Source: Pelotomaculum isophthalicicum JI
Lineage (GTDB): Bacteria; Bacillota; Desulfotomaculia; Desulfotomaculales; Pelotomaculaceae
Direction of reading: 5' to 3'
DNA length: 64,000 nucleotides
Assembly: GCF_029478095.1 (NCBI RefSeq)
Contig: NZ_JAKOAV010000002.1
Coordinates: 62,001 to 126,000, forward strand
Positions 24,596-32,185 of this stretch are shown piece by piece (position 1 is the first letter of the stretch; each line of letters begins with the position of its first letter). A program made the translations under genes and the position numbers. The notes beneath the pieces are model-generated. The model worked only from the letters and a program-made list of their open reading frames with translations. It was not told the DNA's origin and ran no database searches.

Positions 24596-25579
24596 TCAAC
24601 CGATAAACATCTGCACGAACATTTTCCCGTATGGGCCGCCGCTGACAACACCAATGCCCACTTTAGTATAATTTGAATTTAATATGTTTGCCCGGTGTCC
24701 GGACGAGTTCATCAGATTGGTATGCGCAGAATCAACGGTTGGAGCCCCGGCTAGGTTTTCCCCGGCGTAGCGATACTGCACCCCGTATGTTTTCATCATA
24801 TCGAAGGGAGAACCGTAAGTTGGTGACGTATGGTCAAAATAATTTTTATCAATCATATCCTGCCCCTTCATTCTTGCCAACTTGACCAGGGTCAGATCGA
24901 TTTGCAGTGGTTGCAGGCCTGCCTTGCTCCTTTCCTGATTCACCAAATCGAACATCCGCTGCTCGTCGGCATTTAAACCGCTTACGGGTGTCGGCGTGGG
25001 TGTTGGTGTTGGCGTCGGTGTCGGTGTCGGTGTCGGTGTTGGCGTTGGCGTTGGCGTCGGCGTCGGTGTTGGTGTCGGTGTAATCACTTTTTGACCGCCT
25101 GTAAACAACAGGACGATAGTTTTATAGTTGTTTTTTGTGATTATTCCAACGCCAACCCGGTCATAAGATGAGCTGAGTATGCTCGAACGGCTGCCGCCGG
25201 CGCTTAGTCCCTGAAATGCCGAGTTAACAGTCATAGCCTTGCATAGGCTTTCCCCGGCGCTGCTATACTGCACACCGGCCGCCCTCAACATATCACAGGT
25301 AGATCCATACATTGGCGAGTTATGGCTGAAATAGCCGTTCGAAGCAATATCCTGGGCCTTAATCCGGGCCAGATTTGACAGAACAGGGTCGACAACCAGC
25401 GAGGCTTTATTCGCGTCATGGCGCGCCTGATTTATCAGGTCAGCCATAGACTGCTCATCAGCTGTGCAGGAAAGGCTGGCGTCAGCCGGCGCCGGAGCCG
25501 CCGCCCCAATCGAGAAAGCCAGCGCAAGAAGGAACAAGGTAGCAATCAAACCGAACTTCAGGTTTTTGGAAAACCGCAT
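24596..25579 (-). CDS. Secreted protein with two CAP (YkwD/SCP) domains
   Basis: 327 residues: a signal peptide (MRFSKNLKFGLIATLFLLALAFSIGAAA region), a first CAP domain (about 36-165), a linker of about 17 Thr-Pro pairs, and a second CAP domain (about 205-327). The second keeps the family residues HTSPTYGSPF, AGENLAG and GHRANILN. The first has HNSPMYGS and AGESLCKA but GSRSSILS in place of the GHR motif, so it may be inactive. CAP proteins of this type are secreted and wall-associated. A c-di-AMP riboswitch lies directly upstream and a terminator follows. Confidence 0.9.
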   Translation of the reverse strand: MRFSKNLKFGLIATLFLLALAFSIGAAAPAPADASLSCTADEQSMADLINQARHDANKASLVVDPVLSNLARIKAQDIASNGYFSHNSPMYGSTCDMLRAAGVQYSSAGESLCKAMTVNSAFQGLSAGGSRSSILSSSYDRVGVGIITKNNYKTIVLLFTGGQKVITPTPTPTPTPTPTPTPTPTPTPTPTPTPTPTPVSGLNADEQRMFDLVNQERSKAGLQPLQIDLTLVKLARMKGQDMIDKNYFDHTSPTYGSPFDMMKTYGVQYRYAGENLAGAPTVDSAHTNLMNSSGHRANILNSNYTKVGIGVVSGGPYGKMFVQMFIG

Positions 25580-26920: not shown

Positions 26921-27493
26921 TTAAACGAACTCTATGCCAAGCCGCTCCACTATATTGCTGATCCGGTTAAATATGGTCAGCTTATCCGATCCGGCAAACA
27001 GCAAACCCACAACTTTATGGTTTTGATTCAAAATTATTGACCCGCTGTCTCCCGGTTGTGAAGCCATATCAGTCACTACCTGGTCGGAAAACCAGACTTT
27101 TTCGTCATCTTTCATTTCCACTTGCAGCGTAGTGCCGATGGATTTAACCACACCACTAGTCAGACCGGTAGTCCTGCCGCTCTTTTGCACCTTCTGACCG
27201 GGTTTAATATCAGCTATTCCTTTTATCTCGCCTATCTCCAGGATAGAGGGCTTGACAAGATCCGCTGAATCAAGTTTGGCCAATGCGCAATCCACGGTGT
27301 TTTCAGCCGCATAGTTTTTATAAAAGCGTATTTCATAATCCCGTTTAACCAGGTTAAGGATCTTGGTACTTCCGCTAGCTAAGGCCGACGCCACCGGGCA
27401 GTCGGATTTAGCCACATTTTTTTGCAGCGGCACATAGCGCTGCAGTACACCGATGCGATCTTTCAAGGTGCCCCCGTCATAAGGCCCGGGCTG
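26921..27493 (-). pseudogene. Trypsin-like serine protease, C-terminal half (split by insertion)
   Basis: Carries the catalytic Asp in ENTVDCALAKL and the catalytic Ser in SQPGDSGSI, but no His. Its first native codons are CAG CCC GGG CCT TAT (QPGPYDGG) at 27493; the reading frame extends into element sequence to a TTG at 27511 with no ribosome site. The missing N-terminal half lies 3.26 kb away at 30745-31187. Joining both at the shared core gives 1008 bases, exactly 336 codons, and a 335-residue protease with His125, Asp213 and Ser295. Neither half should be active alone. Cut by the serine-recombinase element. Confidence 0.88.
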
Positions 27494-27508
27494 TGCAACT
27501 ACATGGAA
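27486..27508. other. Attachment site, left junction
   Basis: Core CCGGGCTG (27486-27493) followed by TGCA and ACTACATGGAA, the element arm. Left of the core is protease sequence. Confidence 0.75.
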
Positions 27509-27577
27509 CAACTATACAAGCATTCAAAATTTAGCGGCAACCATTCTCTCATATAACTACTGACTACTGGCTACTGA

Positions 27578-29215
27578 CTACTTATATAGTATTATTAGTC
27601 TGATTTTCCTATGCGAAATTTTACCCAATTGCTCTCCGGTGAAAATTAAATCCAGGTTGTATTTTTCTTTTATGCTCTCACTAATCTCTTCACCGTTATC
27701 GATAATAATAATTTTCTTGATAAACTTTTCTAAAAACATTCTATCAATATCATTTATATTAATCTGAATTTGCCCGGAATTAGTTTTTTGAATACTTTCT
27801 TCCACCTGCCTTGTTTTGATTAATTCTTCTTTCAGCCTGAGAATACCGGCGTTTAAGACAGTAATTTCCTTCTCAATCTCAGCGGCGACCTCAATGTAAA
27901 GAGCCTCGTTGACATTTCCCTTGATTCTGTCAAAATACACCATCCGCTGCTGCCGTTTTTTTTCGATTATTTTATTTTCCAGCCGCTTTACTTCTTCGTC
28001 TATTTTTACAGTGGGTAGTCTGATACTTTTGTTATACGCATCTGCCAGCAGGTTTTGAACATTTGTCTCCCGGGCCATTTGTTCAATATCTTCGACGAGA
28101 TAATTGACCAATCTATCTTCCAGTATGTGATGAGTCGTACACCCCCCCCTTTTTCGGCCAAAATTATTATACCTGCCGCAAATGTAATGAGCGGGGCGGT
28201 TTTTTTTCTTTTTATGAACCAGATAAGCTCCACAAGCGGCGCAGATCAAAAAACCGGAGAAAAGATGCTGTTCTTTTGACTTATTCTTTTTTCTTCCTTC
28301 CCCCTCATGCCATCTTTTAACTCTGATCCTTTGCGCCAGTTCAAAGGTCTCTCTGGAAATTATCGCTTCATGAGTGTTTTCCACCACCACCCACTTCTCC
28401 GGTGGCAACCGCCGGGTCTTCCGCAATTTAAAAGATACCTTTTCGCTTACGCCTTGGATTGTATCGCCACAATAGACCCGGTTTGTGATGATCCGCCTGA
28501 TGTGCTGCTCATTCCAGCGGTCAGACTTCTTAGCGCCGGGGTAATTTTTATCCTGGCTGGGTGTCGGTATATTCATGTTTTGTATATACTCGGCCAGCGC
28601 CCGGTAGCCCCAGCCGTTGATATACATATCGAAAATCATCCGAATAATTTTTTGATACCGCCCGTCTACTACCAGCTTGTTTTTCTCACAGGTAGACTTT
28701 AAGTAACCGAAATGCGGCTTGCCTAAGTATTCGCCGTTCTGTATCTTCCTTTTTAAGTTCGCGCGCACTTTTTTGGAAATGTCCCTGCAGTAGTGTTCAT
28801 TAGCCCACGTTTTAATTCCGATAATCTCGTCATCGTCCGCGAAGCTGTCGTAATTATCGACAACCGAGATCAGGCGCACATTGTTATTGATCAGAAAATC
28901 GAGAAAAGTTAGCGTCTCGCCGTTGTTTCTTCCCAACCGGGACAGGTCTTTCACTATCACTGTGTCTACAAGGTTGTTTTTTATATCATGAATTAACTGA
29001 ATAAGGCCAGGCCGGTCGAAATATACGCCTGATTCGTCATTATCAACATACAGCTTGGATTTTCCAAATTTATTTTTTTGTACAAAACCATTTAATAAAT
29101 CGCACTGCGTCTCCAGGCTCTCGTCTCGTTCACCGTTTTCATTGACGCTAAGCCTTGCGTATACCGCCACCAGTTTTCCTCTTGTCCCGTCGCCGGTTTC
29201 GTGAATGGATGGCAT
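27578..29215 (-). CDS. Large serine recombinase (site-specific integrase/excisionase)
   Basis: About 545 residues from the ATG at 29215. The resolvase domain shows VAVYARLSVNENGERDESLETQ with the nucleophile Ser, and VIVKDLSRLGRNNGETLTFLDFL. A recombinase domain follows (GKPHFGYLKST, WNEQHIRRIITNRVYCGD), then a zinc ribbon (ICAACGAYLVHK and YICGRYNNFG...GGC) and a coiled coil (about 420-500). These bind and exchange the att sites. The N-terminus is uncertain: no strong ribosome site precedes 29215, and the frame is open further up. The stop TAG lies in a TGACTAC heptamer array. Nearest known function: skin-type or phage integrases. Confidence 0.93.
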   Translation of the reverse strand: MPSIHETGDGTRGKLVAVYARLSVNENGERDESLETQCDLLNGFVQKNKFGKSKLYVDNDESGVYFDRPGLIQLIHDIKNNLVDTVIVKDLSRLGRNNGETLTFLDFLINNNVRLISVVDNYDSFADDDEIIGIKTWANEHYCRDISKKVRANLKRKIQNGEYLGKPHFGYLKSTCEKNKLVVDGRYQKIIRMIFDMYINGWGYRALAEYIQNMNIPTPSQDKNYPGAKKSDRWNEQHIRRIITNRVYCGDTIQGVSEKVSFKLRKTRRLPPEKWVVVENTHEAIISRETFELAQRIRVKRWHEGEGRKKNKSKEQHLFSGFLICAACGAYLVHKKKKNRPAHYICGRYNNFGRKRGGCTTHHILEDRLVNYLVEDIEQMARETNVQNLLADAYNKSIRLPTVKIDEEVKRLENKIIEKKRQQRMVYFDRIKGNVNEALYIEVAAEIEKEITVLNAGILRLKEELIKTRQVEESIQKTNSGQIQININDIDRMFLEKFIKKIIIIDNGEEISESIKEKYNLDLIFTGEQLGKISHRKIRLIILYK

Positions 29216-29237
29216 GTTACACTCTCGGTTCAACAGA

Positions 29238-29408
29238 TCACTTCCCCTGAGCCTCTTTAATGCTTTTATACGCATATGCAGATGATGAGGCGGCAAGCGT
29301 TCTTACAAGCTTTCTGTACGCCAAAAAAACAATCATATCGTCAATCTTCTCCCTACCGCTCAGTACCGAAAGCCGCTCATGGTTCTCAATGATCAGTTTT
29401 TTCTCCAC
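29238..29408 (-). CDS. Small protein upstream of the recombinase, directionality-factor candidate
   Basis: 56 residues starting at GTG 29408, with AGGAGG 7 bases upstream; it begins VEKKLIIENHERLSVLSGREKIDD and continues as a helical, basic domain (YRKLVRTLAASSSAYAYKS). It ends 22 bases before the recombinase start, so the two are probably co-transcribed. I do not recognise the family. Size and place recall the small recombination directionality factors that make large serine integrases excise (for example SprB of phage SPbeta), but no sequence likeness is claimed. Confidence 0.55.
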   Translation of the reverse strand: MEKKLIIENHERLSVLSGREKIDDMIVFLAYRKLVRTLAASSSAYAYKSIKEAQGK

Positions 29409-29465
29409 TTTTACACCTCCTTTTCTTAATTTATTCAAACAGTGTTTTGTCCAAAAACAAGCGAA

Positions 29466-29512
29466 ACAATAAAAACCCCGGCATATTCAGACTACAACCT
29501 GAAAGAGTGCCG
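29466..29512 (-). terminator. Terminator after the alcohol dehydrogenase
   Basis: CCGGCA and TGCCGG (29476-29511) close a hairpin with an inner TTCAG/CTGAA pair; on the minus strand GGTTTTTATT follows. It separates the dehydrogenase from the recombinase unit. Confidence 0.7.
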
Positions 29513-29576
29513 GAGAAGTAATTTATGGAAAATAATCATCAAATATTGTAGGAATTTTGTTAAATGTATTGAATAA

Positions 29577-30566
29577 TTAACCGTCCACTACCAGCACGGC
29601 CGCGCCGCTGATTTTGCCGCCACGCAAGGCGTCGAGCGCTTCGTTGGCCGCACTGAGGGGGAAAGGCCGCACCTCGGTATGTACCGGAATCTTGGGGGCG
29701 ATGGCCAAAAACTCTTCTCCATCCCTGCGGGTCAGGTTCGCCACGGACCGCACGACTCGCTCGCCCCAGAGGATTTCATACGGAAACGTGGGAATGTCAC
29801 TCATGTGTATCCCACCGCAGACCACCACGCCACCCTTCGCCGTGGCACGCAGCGCGGCTGGGAGCAACGCGCCATCCGGAGCGAAAATAATAGCCGCGTC
29901 CAGTTCCTCCGGCGGCGCTTCCCTACAGTCCCCCGCCCAGACAGCTCCCATGTCGCGGGCAAACCGCTGGGCTTCGACGTCACCCGGCCGGGTGAAGGCA
30001 TAGACCTTCCGGCCCTGGTAGCGGGCTACTTGGGCTACGATGTGGGCGGCGGCGCCAAATCCATAAATGCCGAGGTGTCCGGCCTCACCCGTCATCATCA
30101 GAGAACGGTAGCCGATCAAGCCGGCGCAGAGCAAAGGCGCGGCCTGCAGATCGGGATAGCCTTCAGGTATGGGAAAGCAAAACCGGTAATCAGCCACGGT
30201 ATACTCTGCATAGCCGCCGTTAATCTGGTACCCGGTGAACCGCGCCTTATCGCACAGGTTTTCCCGTCCTGAGAGGCAGTAGCGGCAATGGTTGCAAGTA
30301 GAACCAAGCCATGGCACCCCTACCCGGTCACCCGCGGCAAATTGCCCGGCACGCTCGCCGGCCGCCACTACCGTACCCACGATCTGATGGCCGGGAATCA
30401 AGGGCAGCGCGGGCTCTTTTAATTCCCCGTCTACAATATGCAGGTCGGTCCGGCATAACCCGCAGGTATGTACTTTAATCAAAACCTGTTCCGGTCCGGG
30501 TTCGGGTACCGGCATCTCAATTTCGCGCAGAGGCCGGCCCGGCGCGTCCAGGATCATCGCGCGCAT
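29577..30566 (-). CDS. Zinc-dependent alcohol dehydrogenase (MDR family), element cargo
   Basis: About 329 residues. Catalytic zinc site: CGLCRTDLHIVDGE with GHQIVGTV; structural zinc site: CNHCRYCLSGRENLCDKA; Rossmann nucleotide site: LGIYGFGAAAHIVAQVA. It oxidises or reduces alcohols/aldehydes with NAD(P). The ATG at 30566 is preceded by TGAGGTGG at a good distance; an in-frame GTG at 30575 lies in that site. The coding sequence is visibly more GC-rich than its flanks. It lies inside the serine-recombinase element and is therefore a cargo gene; the substrate is not decidable. Confidence 0.9.
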   Translation of the reverse strand: MRAMILDAPGRPLREIEMPVPEPGPEQVLIKVHTCGLCRTDLHIVDGELKEPALPLIPGHQIVGTVVAAGERAGQFAAGDRVGVPWLGSTCNHCRYCLSGRENLCDKARFTGYQINGGYAEYTVADYRFCFPIPEGYPDLQAAPLLCAGLIGYRSLMMTGEAGHLGIYGFGAAAHIVAQVARYQGRKVYAFTRPGDVEAQRFARDMGAVWAGDCREAPPEELDAAIIFAPDGALLPAALRATAKGGVVVCGGIHMSDIPTFPYEILWGERVVRSVANLTRRDGEEFLAIAPKIPVHTEVRPFPLSAANEALDALRGGKISGAAVLVVDG

Positions 30567-30723
30567 TACTACCACCTCAATCCTTTTCCTCTTACTTTAT
30601 TATTTATTGACAATACTGTTGCAAAGTTGGAGTAGCGCTTGCCATTAGGGCGATTTTGAGCCCTAAACTTTATATTATATTATCAAAAATCTCATTCATT
30701 TGCATGCGAAATCCCTTTTCCTT

Positions 30724-30752
30724 TTCCATGTAGTGTCACAACCGCCGGGCTG
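30724..30752. other. Attachment site, right junction
   Basis: TTCCATGTAGT (30724-30734) is the inverted copy of the left arm, then GTCACAACCG and the core CCGGGCTG (30745-30752). Right of the core is protease sequence (codons for DPILQPG on the minus strand). Confidence 0.75.
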
Positions 30753-31187
30753 CAAAATGGGATCGCCCAACTTAGCCCTGGCCTCTTGAATACTGGAGCC
30801 ATTTGCCAGGACGTGATTATTGGACAACAACATCAATTCATTGGTCTTCTTGTCTTTAACCACCGCCCCGAAAGTACCCGCGGTGGACTGGTAATGGCCG
30901 ATGCTCATTCCCGGCTGGCATGGCCGCTCACGTGAAGTGCGCACTCCCAACATCCTGACAACGCCTATTTCGATTACATCGGTGTCCAAACCGTCAATTT
31001 GCCTTGGTACAATGTGACTGCGGGACAGATCTGACGGGTGCACTTTTTTTTCAACATAAACGATATAAGCCGGACTTCCGGTGTTATCCCCACCAGCATT
31101 CTTATAGCCAACTCCGACACCCACAACGTTTTTTAAGCCGAGCAATTTCCCGCGATATTTTTTAAATGCGTTAAAATATCTATCCAT
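30745..31187 (-). pseudogene. Trypsin-like serine protease, N-terminal half (split by insertion)
   Basis: 148 native residues from MDRYFNAFKKYRGKLLG through GVGVGYKN to the catalytic His in LLSNNHVLANGS (His125) and GDPILQPG at the core. The frame then reads 15 codons of element sequence to a stop at 30696, giving a tail GCDTTWKRKRDFACK. The Asp and Ser of the triad are in the C-terminal half at 26921-27493. Start is the ATG at 31187, with AGGGAGG upstream. It follows yabG by about 65 bases and was probably co-transcribed or co-regulated with it. Confidence 0.88.
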
Positions 31188-31252
31188 TTTCTTTAATCCC
31201 TCCTTTGGATCCTACAACATGATATGCAGGCTAATAATAAGAGGGCACTAAC

Positions 31253-32149
31253 TTAATAAGGTGACTTCGGAATCCCCATGCGATATTTCCCGCGTGTTTC
31301 CATCCCGCCGATCCCTTCAAAGCCGGTAACCGTTCCCGCAATGATATCCTTGATCGAAATCGGGTCATAAATAGACGTATAAGCGATTTTTTCCACGACA
31401 AAGACCGGATCGTACGCATGGATTAACACTCGTTGGGGAGAGCTGGCGAAGTTGGCTCCGGCAGTCAGGATCGCTTCGTAATGCGACTGGCAGGCTCCCG
31501 CGAAGATAACCAAATCATCCCTGCTCTTTTCATAGCGCCTGGCCGCCCTGATTGCTTCAACGAAATATTTGGATGAGTAATAGTTGTTTATATCCTTAAA
31601 ATCCACTTTGCCCTTGATAAAACCATCATGCCCGGTGAGCACAAGCAAATCCGGGCTGTGTTTTTTTAGCAATTCTTCCACTAAAGCAGGTTGTTTGTCT
31701 TCATCGATACAATAACCGTTGGCGGGGATGCTCAATTGCTTGTATGTTGTTAAACAAAGCTCCAGGTAATCATTGTCGCCGTCGATGTGCAAAACAGTTC
31801 CGGGAATATCATAACCGTCCATTTTACCCTGTTCCTGTTCCTTGCTCCGGTCCCCGGGAATAGCCCTGCCCAGAATGATTTCCCGTTCTTTTACCCGGCG
31901 GCTGAAAATGCGCTTCATGTGTTCGCTGTTTCTCTTTGTCTGTTCCATCAAATGCCTGGCCAGAACACCCGGTTCGACTTTGATCAGGTCATCCACCGGG
32001 GCATTCGCGAAGAGCCTGAGTTGAAGCCCTTTTAAATACGCGATTTTGGTCCCGTCCTCGCGCCTGTATAAATCTACCACCTTAAAAAAAACATCGGAAT
32101 TATAGGACCTTCTACCTACTATATCACCTTGCTTTATCTCTCCCATCAT
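31253..32149 (-). CDS. yabG: Sporulation-specific protease YabG
   Basis: About 298 residues. KQGDIVGRRSYNSDVFFKVVD at the start, VLHIDGDNDYLELCLTTYKQL, LLVLTGHDGFIKG and FAGACQSHYEAILTAGANFASSP are characteristic of the YabG family, a Cys-type protease that processes spore coat proteins (and germination proteins in clostridia). The ATG pair at 32149/32146 has GGGGAG upstream. A sigma-K-like promoter lies at 32186-32194. Gene order ksgA-yabG is as in B. subtilis, though here a glycosyltransferase and a ykuK-like gene lie between. Confidence 0.93.
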   Translation of the reverse strand: MMGEIKQGDIVGRRSYNSDVFFKVVDLYRREDGTKIAYLKGLQLRLFANAPVDDLIKVEPGVLARHLMEQTKRNSEHMKRIFSRRVKEREIILGRAIPGDRSKEQEQGKMDGYDIPGTVLHIDGDNDYLELCLTTYKQLSIPANGYCIDEDKQPALVEELLKKHSPDLLVLTGHDGFIKGKVDFKDINNYYSSKYFVEAIRAARRYEKSRDDLVIFAGACQSHYEAILTAGANFASSPQRVLIHAYDPVFVVEKIAYTSIYDPISIKDIIAGTVTGFEGIGGMETRGKYRMGIPKSPY

Positions 32150-32185
32150 ACCCGAACTCCCCAATATTCATTTGCTTCATTTTTA

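Follow-up and report, generated by a model that had tools for sequence, protein, structure and literature searches.

A serine-integrase element divides a protease gene beside yabG at the same codons in four families of one order and is probably a sporulation gene-intervening element

We analysed a stretch of 64,000 nt (the window) from Pelotomaculum isophthalicicum JI (RefSeq assembly GCF_029478095.1, contig NZ_JAKOAV010000002.1, positions 62,001 to 126,000), in which a trypsin-like protease gene is divided by an element with its own large serine integrase (Table 1). The protease gene lies on the minus strand. It starts at 31187, breaks off at the core CAGCCCGG, resumes at the second core copy (27486-27493) and ends at 26921. 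Joining the halves at the core gives 335 amino acids (aa) and a stop codon, with His125, Asp213 and Ser295 in one frame. An initial annotation of the window had described the two halves, the core shared by their inner ends, the joined frame and the position beside yabG, and all of these, coordinates and catalytic residues included, were found as claimed. Trypsin_2 and NARROW LEAF 1 domains were matched, mostly weakly, by the three uninterrupted protease homologues that were scanned.

Table 1. Features of the divided protease locus, in window positions.
Feature	Position	Strand	Remarks
Protease 3' half (Asp213, Ser295)	26921-27493	minus	Second core copy at 27486-27493
Intervening element, 3259 bp core to core	27486-30744		Core copies at both gene breaks
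attP arm TTCCATGTAGT, integrase side	27498-27508	minus	Inverted pair
Large serine integrase	27578-29215	minus	ATG at 29215 is the likely start; open frame to 29296
Small open reading frame (ORF), 56 aa, GTG start	29238-29408	minus	Directly before integrase; candidate recombination directionality factor (RDF)
GGACAA motif	29447-29452	minus	Upstream of small ORF
Zinc-binding alcohol dehydrogenase	29577-30575	minus	Cargo; dN/dS 0.05-0.12 in three pairs
attP arm, inverted copy of TTCCATGTAGT, 5'-half side	30724-30734	plus	Inverted pair
Protease 5' half (aa 1-147, His125)	30745-31187	minus	Ends in core CAGCCCGG at 30745-30752; Pfam NAL1_N
GCATATCATG, -10-like site of mother-cell sigma type	31218-31227	minus	Upstream of protease
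yabG, sporulation-specific protease	31253-32164	minus	Upstream neighbour of split protease gene

The small ORF and the alcohol dehydrogenase gene inside the element are additions to the anatomy given in the initial annotation. The integrase has Resolvase, Recombinase and Zn-ribbon domains, and Ser17 in its YARLSVNE stretch, presumably the catalytic serine, was invariant in the 13 integrase sequences compared. The 11-mer TTCCATGTAGT occurs twice in the 64 kb, inverted and just inside the junctions, against an expectation of 0.02, and none of 100 shuffles contained two copies; the attP-like repeat reported earlier is thereby borne out. When the attP arms of the window element were rebuilt over 22 nt, 17 positions matched, compared with a maximum of 13 in 2,000 shuffles. 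The rebuilt arms of all 13 elements known from related genomes and the window were inverted repeats with 12-18 of 22 positions matching; seven scored above every one of the 2,000 shuffles, and six equalled the shuffled maximum or came within two of it. In one relative (G008) a base was changed on the element-owned side of the core and the proline codon was kept on the gene-owned side, as expected if the crossover falls right of that base. The dehydrogenase, small ORF and integrase are the only contents of the window element; phage structural and replication genes are absent, and a prophage identity was rejected.

To map the distribution, 150 genomes were searched, the window's own included (genomes and families are given below by our G and f labels). 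The protease was found in 119 of them and was split at the same codons, between LQPG and xYDGG, in 13: the window genome, G001, G008, G015 and G019 in family f1, G046 in f12, G050 in f18, and G038, G065, G073, G081, G107 and G111 in f16. Contig-end fragments and frame breaks (G020, G074, G083, G102, G103 and others) were not counted as split, nor was G010. The integrase, at a threshold of 50% identity, was present in the same 13 genomes alone, one copy each and always within this element; the next matches were at 31%. With one same-species genome included, it was found in 14 of 113 genomes of the order. A wider scan of 84,980 species gave 111 integrase relatives, of which 80 were kept; among these, 11 had at least 49% identity and all apparently came from split genomes already counted, and the rest had at most 34%, in a scan that was not exhaustive (G046 was not returned). 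Uninterrupted homologues of about 335-345 aa were common in the relatives, a check proposed in the initial annotation, which its reading withstands. yabG lay 55-175 bp upstream in all 12 split loci with that end present and 60-274 bp upstream in 25 of 28 intact loci (the broken G102 locus was left out). Protease and yabG occurred together in 110 of the 150 genomes, yabG alone in 12, protease alone in 9 and neither in 19, by hand-compiled counts at E ≤ 0.001 that are uncorrected for kinship. G010 and the 13 split genomes were searched for spoIVA, which was found in all 14, and for spoIIID, which was found in all but one.

Both halves lay on one contig in 10 of the 13 split genomes, and there the element measured, core to core, from 2.0 kb (G015) to about 90 kb (G046). 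The 2.0 kb element consists of the small ORF and the integrase alone. Cargo, as judged by eye, varied elsewhere, with a dehydrogenase in four f1 elements and metabolic-looking or mobile-looking ORFs in others. The G046 locus (L044, L201-L204, L045), with its halves about 90 kb apart, is either an intervening element swollen with cargo or a rearranged locus; L202, the part listed, contains YD-repeat and transposase-like ORFs as judged by eye, and L203 has one tRNA-Ile gene. Relatives of the small ORF were present in all 13 elements. In 12 they immediately preceded the integrase and shared its orientation, and the G111 copy was cut at the end of the 5'-half contig. The alignment was made from the other 12 sequences, with the G107 start reset by hand. 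We regard this ORF as a candidate directionality factor.

Codons were fetched for the protease of 55 genomes (13 split, 42 intact) and for the 3' half of G010. The His, Asp and Ser codons were kept and stops were absent in all 13 split and all 42 intact proteases. Among seven pairs of split genes the ratio of nonsynonymous to synonymous divergence (dN/dS) ranged from 0.037 to 0.227. It ranged from 0.023 to 0.399 among nine pairs of intact genes, and from 0.049 to 0.225 in the four pairs that combined a split with an intact gene. These 20 pairs were chosen by hand, a second method was used where the first failed, and ratios from pairs with saturated dS (above 1) are rough. In a neutral simulation at a distance of 0.5 (500 runs), the 3' half acquired a mean of 5.4 stops, with none in 0.6% of runs, and the 5' half a mean of 4.1, with none in 1.2%. 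A decayed pseudogene was ruled out by the dN/dS values and this simulation. No upstream start with a ribosome-binding site was found for the 3' half in any of the 13 genomes, and in four there was no in-frame upstream start whatever; the search covered upstream starts, and starts inside the half lay outside it. Selection on a 3' half with no such start speaks for rejoining of the gene.

Between the window and G001, its nearest relative, dS was 0.49 for the integrase, 0.42 for yabG and 0.59 for the protease. These similar values imply that the gene was split throughout that divergence, and they indicate that the split is old in this lineage. Integrase and yabG distances were correlated over 12 genomes and 66 pairs (Mantel r 0.79; 0 of 5,000 permutations as high); G081, whose contig starts inside the gene and thus has no upstream region, is without yabG in the trees and in this test. 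The pair G038 and G073 is an exception, with integrase identity of 86% and yabG identity of 77%, and dS of 0.31 for the integrase versus 2.2 for yabG and 3.1 for the protease. The low integrase value points to transfer of the cassette. For G000 and G008, silent-site divergence of the integrase (0.53) was also below that of the protease (1.08). Three dS values of this age comparison were uncomputable. The split state required four changes on a 41-row protease tree. On a 55-row tree with more intact members of f16, f18, f11 and f5 it required at least nine, barely under the mean of 11.9 for shuffled states, of which 3 in 500 gave so low a count. From the correlation with its exceptions and from these counts, the element appears to have been long inherited in some lineages; others seem to have acquired it, or to have lost it without leaving a scar.

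Upstream of the protease, within 160 nt, CATANNATG was found in 36 of 42 intact genes, in 9 of 12 split genes and before 17 of 204 control ORFs. AC stood 15-18 nt before it in 32 intact and 7 split genes, a count without a control. We take this motif and spacing to resemble the sigma-K pattern. The 75 nt before the small ORF contained GGACAA, a SpoIIID-like core, in 11 of 13 elements, as did those before one of 206 control ORFs; GCATAT preceded the small ORF in 8 of 13 elements and 8 of 206 control ORFs. No clear motif was seen upstream of spoIVA (12 of 14 rows) or spoIIID (1 of 13 rows), and these genes were not used as a promoter yardstick.

The element is, judged by sequence, built like the skin, SPbeta, gin and yin elements: its gene is uninterrupted in relatives, joining at the core restores the frame exactly, and a large serine recombinase is accompanied by att sites at the element ends. 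The SPbeta integrase YokA was the best match of the window integrase in the PDB. SPbeta, in spsM, likewise combines a large serine integrase with a small factor, and its exact excision restores the frame; the recombinase gene sprA and the 58-aa sprB are described as sufficient for sporulation excision, so that a minimised SPbeta resembles the natural 2.0 kb element of G015 (PMC4191935). The B. subtilis sprB promoter is described there with a perfect -10 and a poor -35, which we count as a further likeness to the mother-cell-type promoter proposed here. In contrast to SPbeta, the window element is 3.3 kb, has no phage genes and uses another target, and its small ORF showed no similarity to a described RDF in PHROGs or the PDB. 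The yin element in yabG of C. botulinum V73 shares the serine recombinase, the inverted att arms and a target in the spore-coat protease module; as described, it is prophage-like, inserted in yabG itself and reported from one isolate (PMC10747680), whereas here the neighbour of yabG is split, in 13 genomes of four families. The gin element in gerE of B. cereus ATCC 10987 is also a non-phage element found in several strains, with a serine recombinase and an extra factor, but it is given as 28.6 kb with three recombinases (PMC5595907), compared with one integrase and an adjoining small ORF here. In skin (sigK of B. subtilis and C. difficile) a recombinase and a small RDF are under mother-cell control; the C. 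difficile RDF, CD1234, is placed under sigma-E and SpoIIID (PMC5025042), and for B. subtilis skr is named along with spoIVCA (PMC6957869). The target here is a protease gene, not a sigma factor gene. Control of the small ORF may be comparable to that of CD1234 and sprB (PMC5025042, PMC4191935).

We therefore consider it likely that the element is a sporulation gene-intervening element of the skin/SPbeta/gin type in a new target gene. A cassette of large serine integrase, a directionality factor of about 55 aa and cargo collected by each lineage would sit between the His and the Asp/Ser codons of a mother-cell protease gene, which would be split and silent in growing cells. Expression of the small protein would be turned on in the mother cell by early regulators there, of sigma-E type and with a SpoIIID-like box. 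Together with the integrase, it would recombine attL and attR across the CCCGG core, producing a circular element and the restored frame of 335 aa. The rebuilt protease would then be transcribed from a late, sigma-K-type promoter common to the uninterrupted genes. The spore would retain the split gene, because the mother cell dies. Excision, its timing, the role of the small ORF, the function of the product and the need for the protease are what we infer from the comparative analysis.

Several observations weigh against this proposal. The evidence is assembled sequence, from which the excised junction and the circle are predicted. Halves lie on separate contigs in three of the 13 genomes (G001, G073, G111), so that a single continuous element is assumed there, and in the 84%-complete G010 assembly the 3' half begins a contig exactly at the core, with the 5' half and integrase not found. 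spoIIID was not found in G008. Four small ORFs compared with PHROGs gave two without a match and two with weak matches (E 0.019-0.16) to families of unknown function, and a PDB search with the small ORF gave nothing convincing. CATANNATG is missing upstream of three of 12 split proteases (G015, G019, G073), in the window this motif is not preceded by AC at a distance of 15-18 nt, and GGACAA is missing in two of 13 elements. The GCATAT -10-like site precedes the small ORF in none of the five f1 elements, the window's included, versus all eight elsewhere. Matches of the -10 type are cheap, since the looser pattern CATANNNT[AG] precedes 40 of 206 control ORFs, and the motif counts are not independent samples, since the elements are homologous. 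For the sigma consensus sequences used here, no supporting paper was found. The available text of a Moorella spore proteome study held nothing usable on the protease homologue (PMC8745062).

It is possible, although in our judgement unlikely, that excision is instead a reversible on/off switch of the protease in populations, independent of sporulation and either phase-variation-like or at the level of strains. Close pairs differ in state (G104/G107, G109/G065, G009/G015), and yin is reported to be excised from a fraction of cells at every time point examined (PMC10747680). The start of the G010 contig at CAGCCCGG, where attB/attL agreement begins, would be expected if both forms were in the sample; this is one case, in an assembly without the integrase. 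The mother-cell-type motifs, the yabG neighbourhood and the co-occurrence with yabG argue for sporulation.

The initial annotation had given equal weight to a plain site-specific mobile insertion, in which conserved codons of a dispensable gene would happen to serve as attB and carriers would simply lose the gene. This is consistent with the movement of the cassette between the lineages of G038 and G073, with the uninterrupted sisters of G107, G065 and G015, and with a split state that is mildly clustered at most on the 55-row tree. However, purifying selection on both halves is like that on intact genes, every split genome has them stop-free and with the triad, and no copy of this integrase at 50% identity or more occurs outside this gene in the 150 genomes. 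No plasmid or phage record had 60% or more identity to the integrase, the eight best listed of each being at most 33%. A phage or plasmid origin was rejected on the same grounds (best listed records at about 32-33%) and on a single viral-contig relative at 29%. We now regard plain insertion as very unlikely. Regulated excision, the other half of the earlier interpretation, is favoured by selection on both halves, the missing ribosome-site-led start of the 3' half, the fixed pair of integrase and small ORF, and the mother-cell-type motifs. A further alternative is that each half is translated separately and the two chains associate into an active protease, with the DNA left uncut. This agrees with two open frames under selection, but it was rejected as highly improbable on the 3'-half start search and because the extra residues at the break differ among genomes.

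Other observations concern the surroundings and relatives of the element. Downstream of the protease (24596-25579) lies a gene for a two-domain CAP protein with a long Thr-Pro repeat linker. Near one element end (27539-27595) is a dispersed repeat of CTACTGACTACT units, to which 16 of the 20 matches listed from the window's own genome are due, with identities of 83-96% and lengths of about 27-47 bases. Positions 30603-30681, upstream of the alcohol dehydrogenase, have three other matches in the same genome at 77-85%, near ORFs that by eye resemble nifH/glnB, lipoate synthase and pth. In P. terephthalicicum JT (G001) a second gene is split, encoding a protein that by eye looks peptidoglycan-binding and transpeptidase-like. 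Its 5' half lies beside a 554-aa serine integrase (L072/L206, contig C80) and its 3' half on another contig (L217, C53), with the 20-nt inverted repeat CCCACACATGAATTGGAACA at both break points; five genomes, that of the window among them, have the gene in one piece (280-309 aa). This is possibly a second, separate intervening element. The metagenome-assembled genome G019 (L073/L207, contig C234) has the same 5' half (identity of 100% along the 90-aa query) next to an integrase of 554 aa but without a close 3' half (best 43%), which may reflect binning contamination or recent transfer.

In the open-licence literature we found no printed report of this element. As far as that literature shows, three features are new: which gene is targeted, a natural minimum of only two genes, and the return of a single cassette to a single site across an order. 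The intervening elements described there, several of them prophages, were each studied in one gene, within one strain or a few close relatives. The present cassette occupies one codon position in four families of one order (f1, f12, f16, f18) and bears marks of long inheritance as well as of transfer. The idea that selection for gene rebuilding maintains such units has been published (PMC6957869). We put at about even the chances of a wider proposal, that the integrase and small ORF are a self-keeping parasite, or a partner, locked to one gene of one order. Selection for the rebuilt product would maintain the pair, which would have disappeared many times without leaving a scar and been acquired again; it would shrink to the 2.0 kb two-gene minimum and serve as a landing platform for metabolic and other cargo of up to about 90 kb, discarded in every mother cell. 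The recurrence, the two-gene minimum and the closely related uninterrupted sisters make direct tests possible. Through these genomes it can be asked why such elements persist, how an RDF gene gains mother-cell control, and what role a protease encoded next to yabG has in spores. If the element is excised in sporulation as proposed, it would add a new natural case of programmed DNA cutting in spore formation.

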